DNA from: a virus
DNA: 32,461 nt
IMG/VR virus record: IMGVR_UViG_3300025151_000012
Location: 1-32,461 of that record
Reading direction: 5' to 3' (one strand)
Shown here: piece by piece, positions 3,702 through 32,461 of the stretch
How positions within the stretch are numbered: the first letter of the stretch is position 1
Layout of the letters: each line of letters begins with the position of its first letter
Notes under the pieces: generated by a model
Told to the model about the DNA's origin: nothing
Databases searched by the model: none
What the model saw: only the letters and a program-made list of their open reading frames with translations
Position numbers and translations under genes: made by a program

Positions 3702-3734
3702 TACCCTTCTCCTTTTTTTTGACAATAGGGATCA

Positions 3735-3869
3735 TTAGAGGCGGTTGTTGCCCTATACAGATCCTAGCTAGTCCATCACCTTCACAGTATCAGTTCAGAT
3801 CATTTACGGCTCTGCCAGACCGCGCCCTTACTACATGGCAACATGACAACTGTTCATCCCCGCCTCTAA
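3735..3869 (-). promoter_or_regulatory. Long-range inverted repeat, possible structured leader
   Basis: On the minus strand TTAGAGGCGG (3869-3860) can pair with CCGCCTCTAA (3744-3735). A second inner pairing, GTTGCC with GGCAAC (3843-3838 with 3752-3747), extends it. The first arm contains GAGG, the ribosome site of a mini-ORF of 8 codons (ATG 3857, stop 3831-3833). This could be the folded 5' leader of the mRNA for the Zn-ribbon and replication genes, or part of a replication origin. It is based on sequence pairing only. Confidence 0.35.
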
Positions 3870-3925
3870 AGGTCGTGAGAGTGATTTGGCTTTCGTGAGC
3901 GGCTGCACCTGAGACAGCACTGTTT

Positions 3926-3943
3926 GACTAGGCTCGACTAGGC
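3926..3943. repeat. Tandem GACTAGGC direct repeat
   Basis: GACTAGGC occurs at 3926-3933 and 3936-3943, a 10-bp period that places both copies on the same face of the helix, as iterons or protein-binding half-sites often are. An inverted CTAGTC occurs at 3768-3773. Two copies are too few to call an origin. Confidence 0.35.
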
Positions 3944-3971
3944 GTACTTTGGTGGGATAAGGAGTTGTGGG

Positions 3972-3999
3972 TATACAGACAGCTAGATTGCTGTATAAT
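3972..3999 (+). promoter_or_regulatory. Promoter P3 of the rightward ncRNA, with operator-like palindrome
   Basis: On the plus strand TATACA (3972-3977) and a perfect TATAAT (3994-3999) are separated by 16 bp. Initiation is expected near 4006, immediately before the first hairpin of the RNA. The spacer is filled by an inverted repeat, ACAGC-N6-GCTGT (3979-3994), a plausible repressor or activator site. Its -35 box matches the TATA-type box of the other three TATAAT promoters rather than TTGACA. Confidence 0.6.
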
Positions 4000-4005
4000 T
4001 TTCCC

Positions 4006-4092
4006 TATCCTTAGCACGCAAACTTAGGATGCCACATGCGCTAACCCTTCCGCAAGTGGTTATGGGCCACCTCCTCAGTGGCCCTTTTTTTT
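4006..4092 (+). ncRNA. Candidate structured antisense small RNA (OOP-like position)
   Basis: The predicted transcript of about 87 nt folds into three hairpins. The first pairs ATCCTTAG (4007-4014) with CTTAGGAT (4023-4030), with one mismatch. The second pairs CCAC-AT-GCG (4032-4040) with CGC-AA-GTGG (4051-4059). The third is the terminator GGGCCAC / GTGGCCC (4064-4070, 4078-4084) followed by eight T. It holds no open frame of note. It is transcribed against the leftward early operon and ends 3 bases from the stop of the 82-residue gene, so read-through early mRNA is fully complementary to it. Lambda OOP RNA has the same place between the cII side and O. GTGG at 4056-4059 could alternatively pair with CCAC at 4067-4070 and open the terminator. 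Confidence 0.6.
4064..4092 (+). terminator. Rho-independent terminator of the rightward ncRNA
   Basis: A perfect 7-bp GC-rich stem (4064-4070 with 4078-4084) with a 7-nt loop is followed by eight T on the plus strand. On the minus strand the hairpin is followed by ATAACC and has no U-tract, so it should stop rightward but not leftward transcription. A strong plus-strand terminator where no plus-strand gene exists is the main evidence that an RNA is made here. Confidence 0.85.
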
Positions 4093-4094
4093 AC

Positions 4095-4344: not shown

Positions 4345-4554
4345 CTACCTCCCTAACTTCTCAAACTCATCGAGAGACATATTTAACCTGCTGGCTAACT
4401 GCACTACGCGACTAAACTTCATGTCGTCTTTGTGCCGCCAGCGGCATACTTGTACAGGCGTTACACCGAACTCTTTTGCCAGTTCATCATTGCTAACACC
4501 TGCGAGCGCCTGCGCTTTCTTCAGCGCTTTACCGACATCAGAAGGGCAAGTCAT
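4345..4554 (-). CDS. Cro/C1-type HTH transcriptional regulator
   Basis: The 69-residue protein is almost entirely one HTH_3-type DNA-binding domain: DVGKALKKAQALAGVSNDEL, then AKEFGVTPVQVCRWRH with the recognition helix TPVQVCRW, then helices ending SLDEFEKLG. A single-domain protein of this size within the early operon is typical of Cro. No CI-like repressor with a cleavable C-terminal domain and no integrase were found. The ATG at 4554 (GGAG upstream) is preferred over one at 4572 with no ribosome site. It overlaps the SSB-like gene by 17 nt. It may bind the TGTTC-N6-GAACA palindrome at 6025-6040 at the head of its own operon (inference). Confidence 0.8.
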   Translation of the reverse strand: MTCPSDVGKALKKAQALAGVSNDELAKEFGVTPVQVCRWRHKDDMKFSRVVQLASRLNMSLDEFEKLGR

Positions 4555-4801
4555 CTTCGAACTCCACCGCATTTGCTAACGACTGCTTGGCCTGTTGCAT
4601 GCCCTTGTTATGCACCTCATCCTTTGCCGTGGTGCTAAGAGACATAAACGTTTTGCCGTTCTTGTCTTTCTTCAGCCACGCTGACAGCCAGAATTCCGCA
4701 CCACTGCCATCGGTATAGCTACCCTTGTAGTCGGGGTGCGTTTCCTTTTCTTTCCTGTCGTTCTTGAACAGGACGCCTCGGTTGCTGTTGTCATACTGCA
4801 T
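4538..4801 (-). CDS. DUF736/SSB-like single-strand-binding candidate
   Basis: The 87-residue protein begins with N-N-R-G-x-L-F-K-N-D-type text (NRGVLFKNDRKEKETHPDYKG) and a FWLSAWLKKDKNGKTFMSLS strand pair, as in DUF736, and is probably OB-like. It ends EFEDDLPF. A terminal acidic run closing in P-F is the hallmark of bacterial SSB tails (DDDIPF), which dock PriA, RecO, RecQ and Exo I. It lies 1 nt after the annealing-type gene, the usual place of a phage SSB in recombination modules. The tail strongly suggests a functional SSB substitute, but the fold is inferred. Confidence 0.65.
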   Translation of the reverse strand: MQYDNSNRGVLFKNDRKEKETHPDYKGSYTDGSGAEFWLSAWLKKDKNGKTFMSLSTTAKDEVHNKGMQQAKQSLANAVEFEDDLPF

Positions 4802-5701: not shown

Positions 5702-6008
5702 AAGTAAACCCCTCTAATTCTGAACATACTTGCTCAGCGTTGATGATGTCGTGGCCATGCCACTTACACGAATGCACACATACGCCGACTTCTTCTACCC
5801 ACTCTGTGCGCCCCTCAAACTCAATCGGATAACGCCCACCTACAGGATGGTAGTAATCGTCGATTGATTTACGATCAACAAGCAGTGTCACAACCTTGGC
5901 CTCTTCGTCGTAGTCGTCTGCAACTGCGGTGCGCTCGATGCCCTCTAACTCATCAACGAACTCATCCCAGTCATCCACCTGCTTGCTTATTCTGATAGCA
6001 ATTTGCAT
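5691..6008 (-). CDS. Hypothetical protein, first gene of the early operon, 105 aa
   Basis: This is a strongly acidic protein (many D/E, for example DDWDEFVDELEGIE) with a beta-rich middle and a C-H-x-x-C/H group (CVHSCKWHGH, about residues 77-86) that could hold a metal. No family is recognised. GGGAGATACAT precedes the ATG. Its position directly after the putative early promoter and operator (6025-6073) makes it a candidate host-takeover protein. That role is inference from position and acidity only. Confidence 0.65.
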   Translation of the reverse strand: MQIAIRISKQVDDWDEFVDELEGIERTAVADDYDEEAKVVTLLVDRKSIDDYYHPVGGRYPIEFEGRTEWVEEVGVCVHSCKWHGHDIINAEQVCSELEGFTYVE

Positions 6009-6024
6009 ATGTATCTCCCTTCAT

Positions 6025-6040
6025 TGTTCCACATAGAACA
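6025..6040. promoter_or_regulatory. Operator candidate TGTTC-N6-GAACA
   Basis: TGTTCCACATAGAACA is a perfect 5-6-5 inverted repeat covering the predicted transcription start of the leftward early operon (about 6039). This is a normal location for a repressor site. The Cro-type protein encoded about 1.5 kb downstream is the obvious candidate ligand. No second copy was noticed in the other non-coding gaps. Confidence 0.5.
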
Positions 6041-6045
6041 TTTAC

Positions 6046-6073
6046 AGAATACACGATTATGGGCAAGGCGCAA
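6046..6073 (-). promoter_or_regulatory. Putative early leftward promoter (sigma-70-like)
   Basis: On the minus strand TTGCGC (6068-6073) and TATTCT (6046-6051) are separated by 16 bp. Both boxes are imperfect. The site sits in the 165-bp divergent gap and would start RNA at about 6039, inside the TGTTC-N6-GAACA palindrome. It differs from the TATA-type promoter class by its TTG-containing -35. Confidence 0.4.
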
Positions 6074-6081
6074 CCACTTTT

Positions 6082-6122
6082 AGATAACTTTTTTGCATTT
6101 GATGTTAAATTAAGTATTGACA
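6082..6122 (+). promoter_or_regulatory. AT-rich divergent control region of the rightward cassette
   Basis: This stretch carries AGATAACTTT followed by TTGCA (6082-6097), a combination also present at 32112-32131, and a perfect TTGACA (6117-6122). No good -10 lies 16-18 bp after that TTGACA, so the exact promoter of the rightward cassette cannot be placed. The shared AGATAACTTT block suggests a common regulator. Confidence 0.3.
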
Positions 6123-6173
6123 GGTATTAACACTTCAGGGCAAACTGGCTTCATCAACTTATGGAGATATGAC

Positions 6174-6662
6174 ATGACTTTACTACTTACTCAAATTCAA
6201 AACGCTTTCGCTAAGGCTGACGCTGAGTCAATTGCAAATCTGCCAGCGACTATTATCGAAGCTCGCGCCGCATACCGAATTGCCAAAGACAAGGTTCTTG
6301 CTACTCGTATGTACACTGAAGAGCGTTACGCCGCTGTCGAAGCTAAGAACGCAATGTTTTCTAAGGCTTTCCAAAGCGACTTTGATTGGGGCGAAGAGCG
6401 TCACATCGAGCGCGCAATCGTCAGCCTTCAGAAAACTCACGAAGCTCGCAACGCTCGCATCCACAAGAAGATGGCCGACGCAGGCATCAAAAACATCGAC
6501 GCCGACAACTTCGAAATTGTTTGGGGCGAAGACTTCGAAGGATTCTGGGTAATCGACGGCTTCAACGTCCGAATCAATGTGATCTGGGCTGGCGGCTACA
6601 ACATCCAACGCCTTCACCATCGAGTTTTAGTTAACGTCAAAAAAGCAAAACTGGCCGCGTAA
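6174..6662 (+). CDS. Hypothetical protein, 162 aa, rightward cassette gene 1
   Basis: This is a helical protein (residues 1-110, many K/R/E) ending in a compact beta-rich domain with FEIVWGEDFEGFWVIDGFNV and AGGYNIQRLHHRVL (about 119-155). The 'AGGYNIQR-LH-R' ending recurs in conserved hypothetical proteins of aquatic phages. The function is unknown. The start at 6174 has GGAGATATGAC just upstream, and the in-frame extension to 6117 has no ribosome site. The stop codon lies in the loop of a GGCCGC/GCGGCC hairpin. It opens the only plus-strand coding cassette. Confidence 0.7.
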   Translation: MTLLLTQIQNAFAKADAESIANLPATIIEARAAYRIAKDKVLATRMYTEERYAAVEAKNAMFSKAFQSDFDWGEERHIERAIVSLQKTHEARNARIHKKMADAGIKNIDADNFEIVWGEDFEGFWVIDGFNVRINVIWAGGYNIQRLHHRVLVNVKKAKLAA

Positions 6663-6672
6663 GCGGCCCTTT
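6653..6672 (+). terminator. Hairpin with stop codon in the loop (weak terminator or 3' stabiliser)
   Basis: GGCCGC-GTAA-GCGGCC is a perfect 6-bp stem with a GTAA loop at 6653-6668, followed by CTTT. The TAA stop of the upstream gene (6660-6662) is in the loop. The T-tract is short, so it probably attenuates or protects the 3' end rather than stopping transcription completely. It resembles the terminator at 31218-31238. Confidence 0.5.
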
Positions 6673-6688
6673 ACTGAGGGGTAATCAC

Positions 6689-6919
6689 ATGCAAAATCGA
6701 GTAGTCAAAATGAAGCCGCGCAAGCCCGTGTGGGATCGTGTGGCACGAAGCGCCCTAGTCCTATGCAGTAACGAGGAATGGCTAGAGGTAATTGCAGAGG
6801 CGCAGGACAGAGGCATTATCCCACGCGACACGTTCATGCGGGACATCGTGGCCTTCAACGAGCGGGCCAGTCAGTTCGATGGTACTGTCAGGGAGTTTCT
6901 TGCAGGAGGTGCGGCATGA
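6689..6919 (+). CDS. Hypothetical protein, 76 aa, rightward cassette gene 2
   Basis: The 76-residue protein has a basic N-terminus (KMKPRKPVWDRVARS) and an acidic helical remainder. GAGGGG lies 8 nt before the ATG. Its stop overlaps the next start (ATGA), so it is coupled to the HEWSH gene, and the two may form a pair. No family is recognised. Confidence 0.65.
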   Translation: MQNRVVKMKPRKPVWDRVARSALVLCSNEEWLEVIAEAQDRGIIPRDTFMRDIVAFNERASQFDGTVREFLAGGAA

Positions 6920-7320
6920 GGCAGGACATCGGCGAGGCGTATCGGCGCGTCATGGGCAAGGCTTGGCAACCAAGCAAGGAGCAAGGTGTTAAGCTTAAGC
7001 CGTTAACAGCAGGCAGGGCGAGAGCGTACTGCAAGGCAACGCTCAAGCTGTGGACAGAGGGGCGCGTGACATTCAACCCAAAGGCTTACGAGATTATCGA
7101 GGCGACAGGCAACCACTATCGGACGTGGAATAGGACGATTGCATTGAGCAACTGGGAGGATCTAAACCACGAATGGAGTCACTGGTGCTTTATGCGGTAC
7201 GGCCCGATCAGGCGCAAGGTCAGCGGGCTAAATCATCACTGTGCTTATCATCTTGAATGGGAGCGCAGCGGGGCGCTTTGGATCTGCCGCCGTCAGTTAG
7301 AGTCAGATTTTAGGCTTTAG
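6916..7320 (+). CDS. Putative zinc metallopeptidase-like protein (HEWSH motif)
   Basis: The 134-residue product contains H85-E-W-S-H89, which fits the HExxH zinc site, followed by H107-H108 and E114. Similar conserved phage proteins show W-x-x-L-x-H-x-x-SH...H...LE with the same spacing, so metal binding is plausible. Whether it cuts protein is unknown. The true start is ATG 6916, overlapping the previous stop (ATGA) with GGAGG upstream. The gene ends at 7318-7320, and the endolysin stop on the other strand is at 7317-7319, so the two genes overlap tail-to-tail with no terminator between them. Confidence 0.6.
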   Translation: MRQDIGEAYRRVMGKAWQPSKEQGVKLKPLTAGRARAYCKATLKLWTEGRVTFNPKAYEIIEATGNHYRTWNRTIALSNWEDLNHEWSHWCFMRYGPIRRKVSGLNHHCAYHLEWERSGALWICRRQLESDFRL

Positions 7321-7673
7321 CCATAGGTCCACATGACAGGTGTGGTCGTGCGCATATCGACGTGTACGAATGTGCGGGCTACCCCGATACCTGAAAAGCC
7401 CATAGCCAAGGCTTCCTTGACGATCTTCATCCGCTCAACGCCGTTAGAGACAGCGATGTCGGCGGCAATACCCTGCGTATGCGTGCCTTTTTTTCCGACA
7501 GGCTTATTGCGCTCGGCTGTGTGATTTACTGACCTATAACCACTTGTGATTTTAAAGGGAAAGCCGCATCGCTCGCGTAGTTCGTCAAGCATGAATAAAA
7601 ACGAGCTATCCATTGATAGCTCCCCAGATTCTCTACAGCGAAATTCTGACTCGGAAAAGTGCTTATAGGTCAT
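7317..7673 (-). CDS. Endolysin, peptidase M15 family
   Basis: The 118-residue enzyme has the M15 (D-Ala-D-Ala carboxypeptidase / L-Ala-D-Glu endopeptidase) zinc site: S44-GYRS, G-T-H65-TQGIAA-D72, and V-H104-V-D106. It cleaves peptidoglycan peptides at the end of infection. It has no signal peptide, so it depends on the holin encoded just upstream. ATG 7673 (AAAGG upstream) overlaps the holin stop by 4 nt. It is the last gene of the long late operon. Confidence 0.9.
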   Translation of the reverse strand: MTYKHFSESEFRCRESGELSMDSSFLFMLDELRERCGFPFKITSGYRSVNHTAERNKPVGKKGTHTQGIAADIAVSNGVERMKIVKEALAMGFSGIGVARTFVHVDMRTTTPVMWTYG

Positions 7674-8017
7674 TTGCCTTTCCACTTAGTAAGCCCACGA
7701 ACTCCGACGCTGCTCGCGACAAGTGCTGCCAACATTGCTCGATAGTAGTCAGGCATGGTTGCCAGAACTTGGAACCCGTCTCGAACATAAGGCACCAAAG
7801 GAGGTACGAAACACATAACAAGAGGAATGCTAAACAGCACAGTAAAAAACTCATCGCGCCAACTATTATTTGCATTGTTAGCGTGAATATTCTCCCAATT
7901 CGCGTCCTGCCTAATTGACTCAATTTTGCGCTCATGTACTGCGCGCTTTTCTTCAGCTTTTCTTTCAAGGTGTCCCCCTACTAGATTGACCACTGGTCCA
8001 ATCAATGTCTGCCACAT
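7670..8017 (-). CDS. Holin (3TM/GTA-holin-like)
   Basis: The 115-residue protein has a charged amphipathic N-terminal half, then DEFFTVLFSIPLVMCFVPPL (membrane segment about 58-76), the family-typical GFQVLATMPDYYR link, and a second membrane segment (about 92-108) ending SVGVRGLTK. This architecture matches the 3-TM holin superfamily found directly before endolysins. It forms membrane lesions that release or activate the lysin. A frame-shifted hydrophobic open frame (7663-7968) is nested in it and is discussed as a finding. Confidence 0.85.
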   Translation of the reverse strand: MWQTLIGPVVNLVGGHLERKAEEKRAVHERKIESIRQDANWENIHANNANNSWRDEFFTVLFSIPLVMCFVPPLVPYVRDGFQVLATMPDYYRAMLAALVASSVGVRGLTKWKGK

Positions 8018-31217: not shown

Positions 31218-31238
31218 AAAAAAGGCCGCTTATGCGGC
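31218..31238 (-). terminator. Rho-independent terminator with stop codon in the loop
   Basis: On the minus strand GCCGC-ATAA-GCGGC (31238-31225) is followed by C and six T (31223-31218). The TAA stop of the 280-residue gene (31232-31230) is the loop. Translating ribosomes will cover this hairpin, so termination may depend on translation of the end of that gene. Confidence 0.8.
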
Positions 31239-32072
31239 TATTGCCTCTGTGATGATTGCGGCTTTTGTAGGCCGCTTGAAAAAACCAAACTTAGCGTCTT
31301 TGTCTGATACTGTCACCGTAGCAGTAAACGTAATGCGGCTCTCGCGCTCTGCATCATCAAGGCTAGAAGGTACTGAACCCCACACTCGAAAGCCACGATC
31401 ATCCTGCACTAGCATCTTGAGAACATCGCCGTACATAGATTCATGACGCTTAAATGCCAGCACAGTGCCAGTGATAACAACGCGGCCTTCTGGTGCATCC
31501 TCGCCAGCCTCATGCGCCGCATCACGCTCTGCACGTTGTGCATCACGTTGCTCTTGAGCGTACTTTTGCAACCTAATCAGATCGCCTACCAGCTTTTCGC
31601 GGATAGCTTCGCAGATATCCTGCGGGCAGTTCGAAACAGTGACATAGCGCATTGGCTTGCCATCTCTGTCGTCAAACGCGCGTGACGCGTAGACGCTAAC
31701 GATCTCGCGAGTCACTGCTGGTAGCTCTTGCCACTGCATCATGAACTTGTCAGCACGATCAGCAGGAACGACAAACTTAGTCTCTTCTCCAAAGGCACCT
31801 AGAGCGACACTTTCGCGCTCTTTAGGGAAGGGCAAATACTGGCCTGCAAGGTAAGCCGCCTCAAACTCGTTGTCGCCCTCCTGCCAAACCCAGACATAGC
31901 CATCGCAAGGCGCGTGTAAACGGCCAGACTTTTCTGAGAAAACAGGCTCTGCACCTTTATTGCGATTAGCCGCCGCACGTTGCAAGCGAGTGTCGTAAGC
32001 CTTAACGCCACGCTGACGCGCAACCTCGTAGTCAGCGATGCGATTTTCTAACCAGTTAAAAAAGCTACTCAT
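31230..32072 (-). CDS. Conserved phage protein with C-terminal OB-like segment, 280 aa
   Basis: Residues 1-190 are mixed alpha/beta with a long charged helix (RLQKYAQEQRDAQRAERDAA, about 165-190). Residues about 196-275 hold GRVVITGTVLAFKRHESMYG, KMLVQDDRGFRVWGSVPSSL and KFGFFKRPTKA. The block 'G-TVL--K......K-LV-DDRGF-VWG-VP' followed by 'FGFF-RP-KA' is common in phages and looks like an OB fold. The function is unknown, perhaps nucleic-acid binding. GGAGAAGGGTA precedes the ATG. Its stop codon is in the loop of a terminator. Confidence 0.7.
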   Translation of the reverse strand: MSSFFNWLENRIADYEVARQRGVKAYDTRLQRAAANRNKGAEPVFSEKSGRLHAPCDGYVWVWQEGDNEFEAAYLAGQYLPFPKERESVALGAFGEETKFVVPADRADKFMMQWQELPAVTREIVSVYASRAFDDRDGKPMRYVTVSNCPQDICEAIREKLVGDLIRLQKYAQEQRDAQRAERDAAHEAGEDAPEGRVVITGTVLAFKRHESMYGDVLKMLVQDDRGFRVWGSVPSSLDDAERESRITFTATVTVSDKDAKFGFFKRPTKAAIITEAIAA

Positions 32073-32104
32073 TACCCTTCTCCATATATTTAGCTATGGA
32101 TACT

Positions 32105-32202: not shown

Positions 32203-32391
32203 TCACCCGTAATGACGGGCAATCTCTGCGATGAAATAGTCTTCGTTAGGGTGACGCGATAGGCGCTTGAGGTACTCTTCCTCTGTGACGCCCTTATCTC
32301 TACCCAGACGAGACAGTAGCTCTGCGATTCTGTCGGTTACGACAATGTGATGCCGCTCGCCGAAATACTGCCGTTGGCTCTGTACACACAT
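32203..32391 (-). CDS. Hypothetical protein, 62 aa, across the circle junction
   Basis: The 62-residue, helical protein ends RLSRHPNEDYFIAEIARHYG. A block 'AEL...L...KG(V)T.EEY..RL..HP.EDYFI.EIA..YG' is typical of short phage proteins of unknown role. AGGAGG (8-nt spacing) and promoter P1 lie upstream in the repeated 99 bp. A perfect 5-bp hairpin (CCCGT/ACGGG, 32206-32219) covers the last codons but has no T-tract. Confidence 0.65.
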   Translation of the reverse strand: MCVQSQRQYFGERHHIVVTDRIAELLSRLGRDKGVTEEEYLKRLSRHPNEDYFIAEIARHYG

Positions 32392-32461
32392 GACAACATC
32401 CTCCTGTTGCCCTGCTATTATAGCATACAGGCAATCAGTTATACGAAACGATAACGTAGTC
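32363..32461. repeat. Terminal direct repeat, right copy (circle overlap)
   Basis: This is identical to bases 1-99. It holds the start codon of the 62-residue gene (ATG at 32391-32389) and a second copy of the extended -10 promoter (TATAAT at 32417-32422), so the same site appears at both window ends although the real genome has one. Confidence 0.9.

Follow-up and report, generated by a model that had tools for sequence, protein, structure and literature searches.

What is encoded on the plus strand at positions 4006 to 4092 of a viral genome record, in a gap between two leftward genes, and on what would its product act? The DNA in question, called the window here, is the whole stretch that was analyzed, 32,461 nt of IMG/VR record IMGVR_UViG_3300025151_000012. 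An initial annotation recognized a promoter, three hairpins, and a T8 terminator at this locus, and all of them are present where it had placed them (Table 1). The 87-mer folds at -30 kcal/mol, versus -18.5 ± 2.7 kcal/mol for shuffled sequences (z = -4.2). Within the first 12 kb, promoter and terminator matches occur at chance level (11 and 12, versus 12.1 and 12.2 expected); the unit at 4006 to 4092 has the top promoter score in these 12 kb, and its terminator is among the strongest there. It is through conservation among relatives, and not through such matches, that the predicted small RNA rises above chance.

The small RNA forms one end of an intercistronic module of about 370 nt (3702 to 4094). 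Block-piece scans of IMG/VR and profile searches of fetched DNA located this module, whole or in fragments, in 66 other IMG/VR contigs. The conserved unit consists of the small-RNA end (4006 to 4092), its promoter, and a 220-nt domain (3722 to 3943) that is more strongly conserved than the small-RNA end. At 59 loci, the small-RNA side is covered by 200 nt or more; a mechanical promoter/terminator parse succeeded at 52 of them, and 51 of these 52 have exactly three hairpins in 76 to 91 nt, the exception (L152) being an overrun from an interrupted T tract. The seven failures are due to an insert of 43 nt or to an interruption of the T run, and the small-RNA region can be seen by eye in six of them and in the seventh, L167. 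Hairpins and promoter are thus kept in relatives, and the proposal of a separate antisense RNA, running against leftward transcription from a promoter to a terminator of its own, is well supported at the level of sequence and conservation, as is the existence of the small RNA/leader module.

Some contigs show departures from this layout. L159, L047, and L136 have an insert of about 43 nt beside the P5 hairpin, on the leader side, containing an inverted repeat of its own; its sequence is TTTCGAATGACACTTACTGTATTCAAACATACACAAAGTGTATTGA in L159 and L047. Of the seven contigs matched in a scan with the 82-aa neighbor protein, three have the same intergenic block, and the other four have no block. 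L005 to L008 show that the site of the module may be empty, since a close relative of the 82-aa gene is followed there directly by another gene (MSDIPQPVIDVL...).

For the module, searches outside IMG/VR were negative at the sensitivity applied. Two exact-pattern scans of GTDB contigs found no copy of the module in prophages; the DNA of the window matched none of 50,697 isolate phages, and blastn gave no match among 72,556 plasmids. The best terminase relatives are Pelagibacter phages (53%), and the only two Pelagibacter phage records fetched, HTVC111P and DSL-LC06, have zero matches to the domain profile. Rfam 15 returned no match in the window at the gathering score and nothing credible at E ≤ 10 (best match, 16.5 bits against a cut-off of 50), which agrees with the earlier remark that no family matches.

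The sequences fall into three classes with a common layout. Class A is that of the window; class B comprises L160, L161, L162, and L164, and class C comprises L163, L165, and L166, both of which contain the 220-nt domain. The small-RNA ends of class B are nearly, and that of class C (L163) is wholly, unalignable to the window: compared with shuffled controls, similarity is weak between A and B (z = 5) and absent between A and C (L163; z = 0.9). Homology between the small RNAs of classes A and C therefore rests on position and architecture. The order of elements (T run, terminator stem, H2, H1, promoter, long hairpin) is kept in classes B and C, and their predicted RNAs again have three hairpins (fold z = -4.7, -6.3, and -7.0). 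The -10 element is TATAAT or TACAAT in class A, TATAAT in class B, and an extended -10, TGGTAAACT, in class C, with the caveat that the class B and C promoters lie below the scan threshold for both hexamers and that their -10 elements were assigned by inspection.

Within the small RNA, the terminator stem is 100% paired in the alignment count, with both sides changed at four pairs; its variants include GGGCCAC/GTGGCCC, GCCCCGT/ACGGGGC, and GGGCCAG/CTGGCCC, and the T run is retained in all. H1 is paired in 98.1% of cells yet displays zero covariation within class A; in classes B and C, it is re-created with different sequences. The initial annotation had further suggested that GTGG (4056 to 4059) might pair alternatively with CCAC at 4067 to 4070, allowing the RNA to switch between terminating and nonterminating folds. 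Most relatives have lost this alternative pairing, their terminator stem at that place being GCCCCGTT/AACGGGGC, so a switch of this kind inside the small RNA is not conserved and was rejected.

Table 1. Coordinates of the predicted small RNA, the opposed leader, and the adjoining genes in the window.
Feature	Position	Strand	Remarks
Antisense small RNA	4006-4092	+	87 nt, three hairpins and T8
Sigma-70-type promoter, TATACA-N16-TATAAT	3972-3999	+	TATACA 3972-3977, TATAAT 3994-3999
Hairpin H1 (ATCCT/AGGAT)	4007-4030	+	loop holds variable, specificity-like sequence
Hairpin H2	4031-4060	+	pyrimidine-rich loop ACCCUUCC
Intrinsic terminator	4064-4092	+	hairpin 4064-4084, T8 at 4085-4092
Structured intercistronic leader RNA (opposed transcript)	3702-4094	-	ends at ribosome-binding site of next gene
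P3, GCGTGC (4019-4014) with GTACGC (3947-3942)	3942-4019	-	encloses P4 and P5; 97.3% paired
P4, GGATAGGGA (4010-4002) with TCCTTATCC (3963-3955)	3955-4010	-	competes with H1'
P5, TATACAG/CTGTATA hairpin	3972-3997	-	same bases as small-RNA promoter
Helix Y, 3884-3875 with 3785-3776	3776-3884	-	
Helix X, TTAGAGGCGG (3869-3860) with CCGCCTCTAA (3744-3735)	3735-3869	-	crosses Y
Helix X2, TGTTGCC (3843-3837) with GGCAACA (3752-3746)	3746-3843	-	
Direct repeat GCCTAGTCGAGCCTAGTC	3926-3943	-	opens conserved domain; nearly invariant in 49 sequences of all classes
First gene after leader, 144 aa	3267-3701	-	zinc-ribbon/HNH-like; unrelated genes instead in relatives
Gene before leader, 82 aa	4095-4343	-	in most relatives, an HTH gene like that at 4345-4572 here

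The opposed minus-strand transcript has a conserved fold of its own, which the initial annotation had not noticed. Pairwise covariation indicated long-range helices, in which the wobble pairs suit the minus strand (22 versus 2 in helix Y, 14 versus 4 in P3, and 26 versus 0 in ATAGGG/CCCTAT), and a structured RNA on the plus strand was rejected on this ground; the RNAalifold energy difference between the strands (-171 versus -161) was given no weight. When 63 pairs were counted in 43 sequences, 92.9% of cells were paired, versus 34 to 47% when slid, and double changes affected 17 of the 63 pairs and 163 cells, versus 54.6 cells in shuffled and 14 to 35 in slid controls. P3 is paired in 52 of 54 cells, a level reached in 0 of 2,000 permutations. 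The loop of H1' (ATCCT/AGGAT), the first leader hairpin, occurs in six types (GCGTAC, GCGTGC, GCACTC, GCACAC, GCATAC, and GCACGC), each with a matching P3 partner. This partner lies at least about 70 nt away and tracks the loop via G-U intermediates that pair on the minus strand, as evidenced by the joint changes GCGTAC/GTACGC, GCACTC/GAGTGC, GCACAC/GTGTGC, and GCATAC/GTATGC. P5 is 100% paired, with one pair going from A-U to G-C in 16 sequences, and P4 is 66.6% paired on the sequence alignment, a value lowered by indels, and is retained in single-sequence folds.

Further downstream, helix Y has changes on both sides in 6 of its 10 pairs (0 of 300 permutations) and is re-made in divergent members as TCATTCCTAC/GTAGGAATGA and TCAATCTAC/GTAGATTGA. 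Helix X is re-made in other members as AGAGGCGG/CCGCCTCT, GAGGACG/CGTCCTC, GAGGGCGG/CCGCCCTC, and AGAGGAC/GTCCTCT, and helix X2 is re-made as GTTGCC/GGCAAC and, in class C and L039, as GGTGAC/GTCACC. The arms of Y, X, and X2 match within their own sequence far better than between sequences; the text patterns of this test mis-cut some arms (the Y3 arm in several sequences and the window's X2 5' arm), which weakens rather than inflates the result. Since Y crosses both X and X2, what is conserved is either a pseudoknot or a pair of alternative folds. Also, some of the conservation in the leader could serve DNA sites, for example, repeats or an origin.

Other accounts of the leader were considered and rejected. 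A DNA operator is inadequate as the sole cause of the TATACAG/CTGTATA palindrome, the arms of which lie inside the covarying P3/P4; the class C equivalent of this stem co-changes (TGC/GCA to TGT/ACA), and the window has no second full copy. The evidence favors RNA as the level at which the palindrome acts, and an additional repressor site there is conceivable. Attenuation by an intrinsic terminator was discarded since the module contains no minus-strand terminator; it contains no minus-strand sigma-70-like promoter either, and the leader is therefore likely to belong to a longer transcript. A group I intron or another known ribozyme was rejected given the absence of an Rfam match.

At its downstream end, the leader runs into a ribosome-binding site (AAAAAAAGGAGAAGGGTAATG in class A), behind which different relatives have different small genes, from at least 13 unrelated families in total. 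Ten representatives of these downstream genes, compared with Pfam, gave one weak PDDEXK match and otherwise none, and no match to a replication protein. This variation of the flanking genes indicates that the module is selected for itself rather than for one gene. On the other side, the T tract of the small RNA ends 2 nt before the stop codon of the 82-aa gene, upstream of which the window has a further, HTH gene (4345 to 4572). A separate minus-strand gene at 31230 to 32072 has the same GGAGAAGGGTAATG start region (ribosome-binding site near 32072 to 32085) as the postleader gene and lacks the module; it is possibly a second target of the small RNA, or the two may have a common translation signal.

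H1' and P3/P4 use overlapping bases, are mutually exclusive, and are both conserved. In every sequence listed, P3-P5 far outweighs H1' in energy (-21 to -29 versus -4 to -8 kcal/mol), so a switch between them would depend on kinetics. The small RNA is complementary to the first 87 nt or so of the leader, including bases needed for P3 and P4: it covers H1', the 5' arm of P3, and most of the 5' arm of P4 (4010 to 4006 of 4010 to 4002). Because these 5' arms are covered, duplex formation by the small RNA and the leader would eliminate P3 and P4, and we infer that it would do so inside cells. With moderate confidence, we propose that, in this leftward phage operon, folding of the structured leader is under the control of an antisense RNA encoded in cis. 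Support comes from the conserved three-hairpin architecture together with the covarying leader helices, from the co-change of P3 with the H1 loop, and from the retention of the whole module while flanking genes change; points against are the lack of class A covariation in H1, the energy balance in favor of P3-P5, the lack of a conserved replication gene after the leader, and the DNA sites that part of the leader conservation might serve. Systems of like build, RNA I/RNA II and CopA/CopT, act by antisense on a leader (PMC12361487, PMC5717011).

The mechanism and output that we infer run as follows. During leftward transcription, H1' would be the first structure to form, and P3/P4 would then capture its loop and 3' arm once the downstream partner had been transcribed. 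Were the antisense RNA to arrive first, a loop-loop contact between H1 and H1' would give way to a full duplex, likely followed by RNase III cleavage. In an antisense-bound leader, P3-P5 would be blocked, and the pseudoknotted domain beside the ribosome-binding site would misfold or be cut off; as a result, the first gene, and perhaps the whole operon, would be expressed less. Since every copy of the phage genome would make the small RNA, it could act as a copy sensor or confer RNA-based immunity between phages of the same loop type.

The phage precedent named in the initial annotation is lambda OOP, which acts through RNase III on the cII mRNA; it furnishes the first of the rival explanations, in which the small RNA merely destabilizes an early mRNA via RNase III and the leader fold is incidental. 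The two RNAs are alike in size (about 80 nt; OOP is about 77 nt), in having their own promoter and an intrinsic terminator, and in lying downstream of HTH regulator genes, opposed to an early transcript. The comparison drawn in the initial annotation holds for position only: the small RNA does not overlap the 3' end of the regulator gene, and in relatives, too, its terminators abut the upstream gene without overlap. Unlike OOP, which faces a coding 3' end, it faces a structured leader, one with a strongly covarying fold whose pairing is coupled to changes in the H1 loop. We therefore judge this explanation unlikely. The defining target of OOP is the cII mRNA (PMC12197685, PMC3985674).

An explanation that we find improbable to a similar degree is control of priming as in ColE1, where the leader would be an origin preprimer and replication would be limited by the small RNA. 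As with RNA I, a short antisense RNA that has three hairpins and a promoter and terminator of its own lies over the 5' part of a long structured RNA. The latter has mutually exclusive pairings, H1' versus P3/P4, which the antisense RNA might influence as it does in RNA II; the direct repeat is invariant, and an A-run stands at the leader end in class A and most of class B. However, L162 and class C have only a short A-run or none, the leader is succeeded immediately by a ribosome-binding site and start codon, the plasmids searched by blastn show no similarity, and no sign of an origin appears in the GC skew at 4 kb. The small RNA is also shorter than RNA I (87 versus 108 nt), and, unlike RNA II, the phage leader runs directly into varied protein genes and shows no conserved RNase H/primer end.

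Action in trans is quite unlikely, in our estimation. Here, the pyrimidine-rich loops (H2, ACCCUUCC; H3, CCUCC) would bind Shine-Dalgarno sequences, chiefly that of the next gene (GGAGAAGGGUAAUG). C/U-rich loops occur in every class, the H2 loop matches GAAGGGU of the next gene, GAAGGGTAATG is common to this gene and the gene at 31230 to 32072, and the letters of H2' and the ribosome-binding site are associated (T/T 33, A/A 8, T/A 8, A/T 0), although this association is confounded by relatedness. Moreover, Shine-Dalgarno sequences match any C-rich loop, and the next gene ranks only 4th of 44 in pairing with the H2 loop. Collision, in which the conserved promoter opposes leftward transcription and the small RNA is a by-product, has been proposed for the lambda pO promoter (PMC3985674), but the three hairpins are kept well beyond promoter and terminator, in the divergent classes too, making it very unlikely here. 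Finally, a chance assembly of promoter-like, hairpin, and terminator-like sequence, although single-sequence scans do not exceed expectation, is refuted by conservation and covariation across about 60 contigs and has a negligible probability.

The proposed antisense control of the leader has its nearest parallels outside phages. CopA/CopT of plasmid R1 (IncFII) and the Inc RNA of IncB/I plasmids likewise oppose a leader between operon genes, and some relatives of these systems have a pseudoknot adjoining the start site. In contrast to CopA/CopT, the phage leader is followed by no rep or leader-peptide gene. The P1/P7 c4 RNA, P4 CI RNA, and P22 sar RNA are also small phage antisense RNAs that control phage genes; the c4 and CI RNAs arise by processing of transcripts from the strand that also encodes their targets, and the module has no Rfam match to any of these families. 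By analogy, the locus is best read as a switch built like RNA I/RNA II or CopA/CopT that would belong to neither of them, nor to OOP.

Plasmids classically count themselves with an antisense RNA that acts on a folded leader, and to our knowledge few phage examples are understood. The kind of control is thus known, mainly from plasmids; for the leader fold, the phage setting, the exchangeable downstream gene, and the sequence classes, Rfam 15 and a literature search yielded no description. The module offers a good candidate for a new RNA-based switch in bacterial viruses. More tentatively, and with somewhat less than even confidence, it may represent an undescribed phage RNA control system, made up of a pseudoknotted leader from a new family and its own diversifying antisense RNA, which switches it, for genome-copy sensing or loop-type-specific RNA immunity, as a portable cassette before exchangeable small phage genes. 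If uncultured phages have a conserved and modular version in which the loops diversify, the structured RNA families would gain a new member, and reporter fusions in laboratory E. coli would make RNA-level copy sensing or superinfection immunity in phages directly testable.

Other features of the window were recorded in passing. The minus-strand gene at 821 to 1978 encodes an SbcD-like exonuclease (phrog_704, 6e-90) with an N-terminal HTH/sigma-region-4-like segment. GC skew changes sign at 6001 to 8000, around a plus-strand ORF of 180 aa (6778 to 7320) with no PHROG match; this interval is a candidate early control region or may simply hold the only rightward gene. Positions 1 to 99 and 32363 to 32461 form an exact 99-bp terminal direct repeat, so the window probably represents an entire genome of about 32.36 kb, either circularly permuted or terminally redundant.
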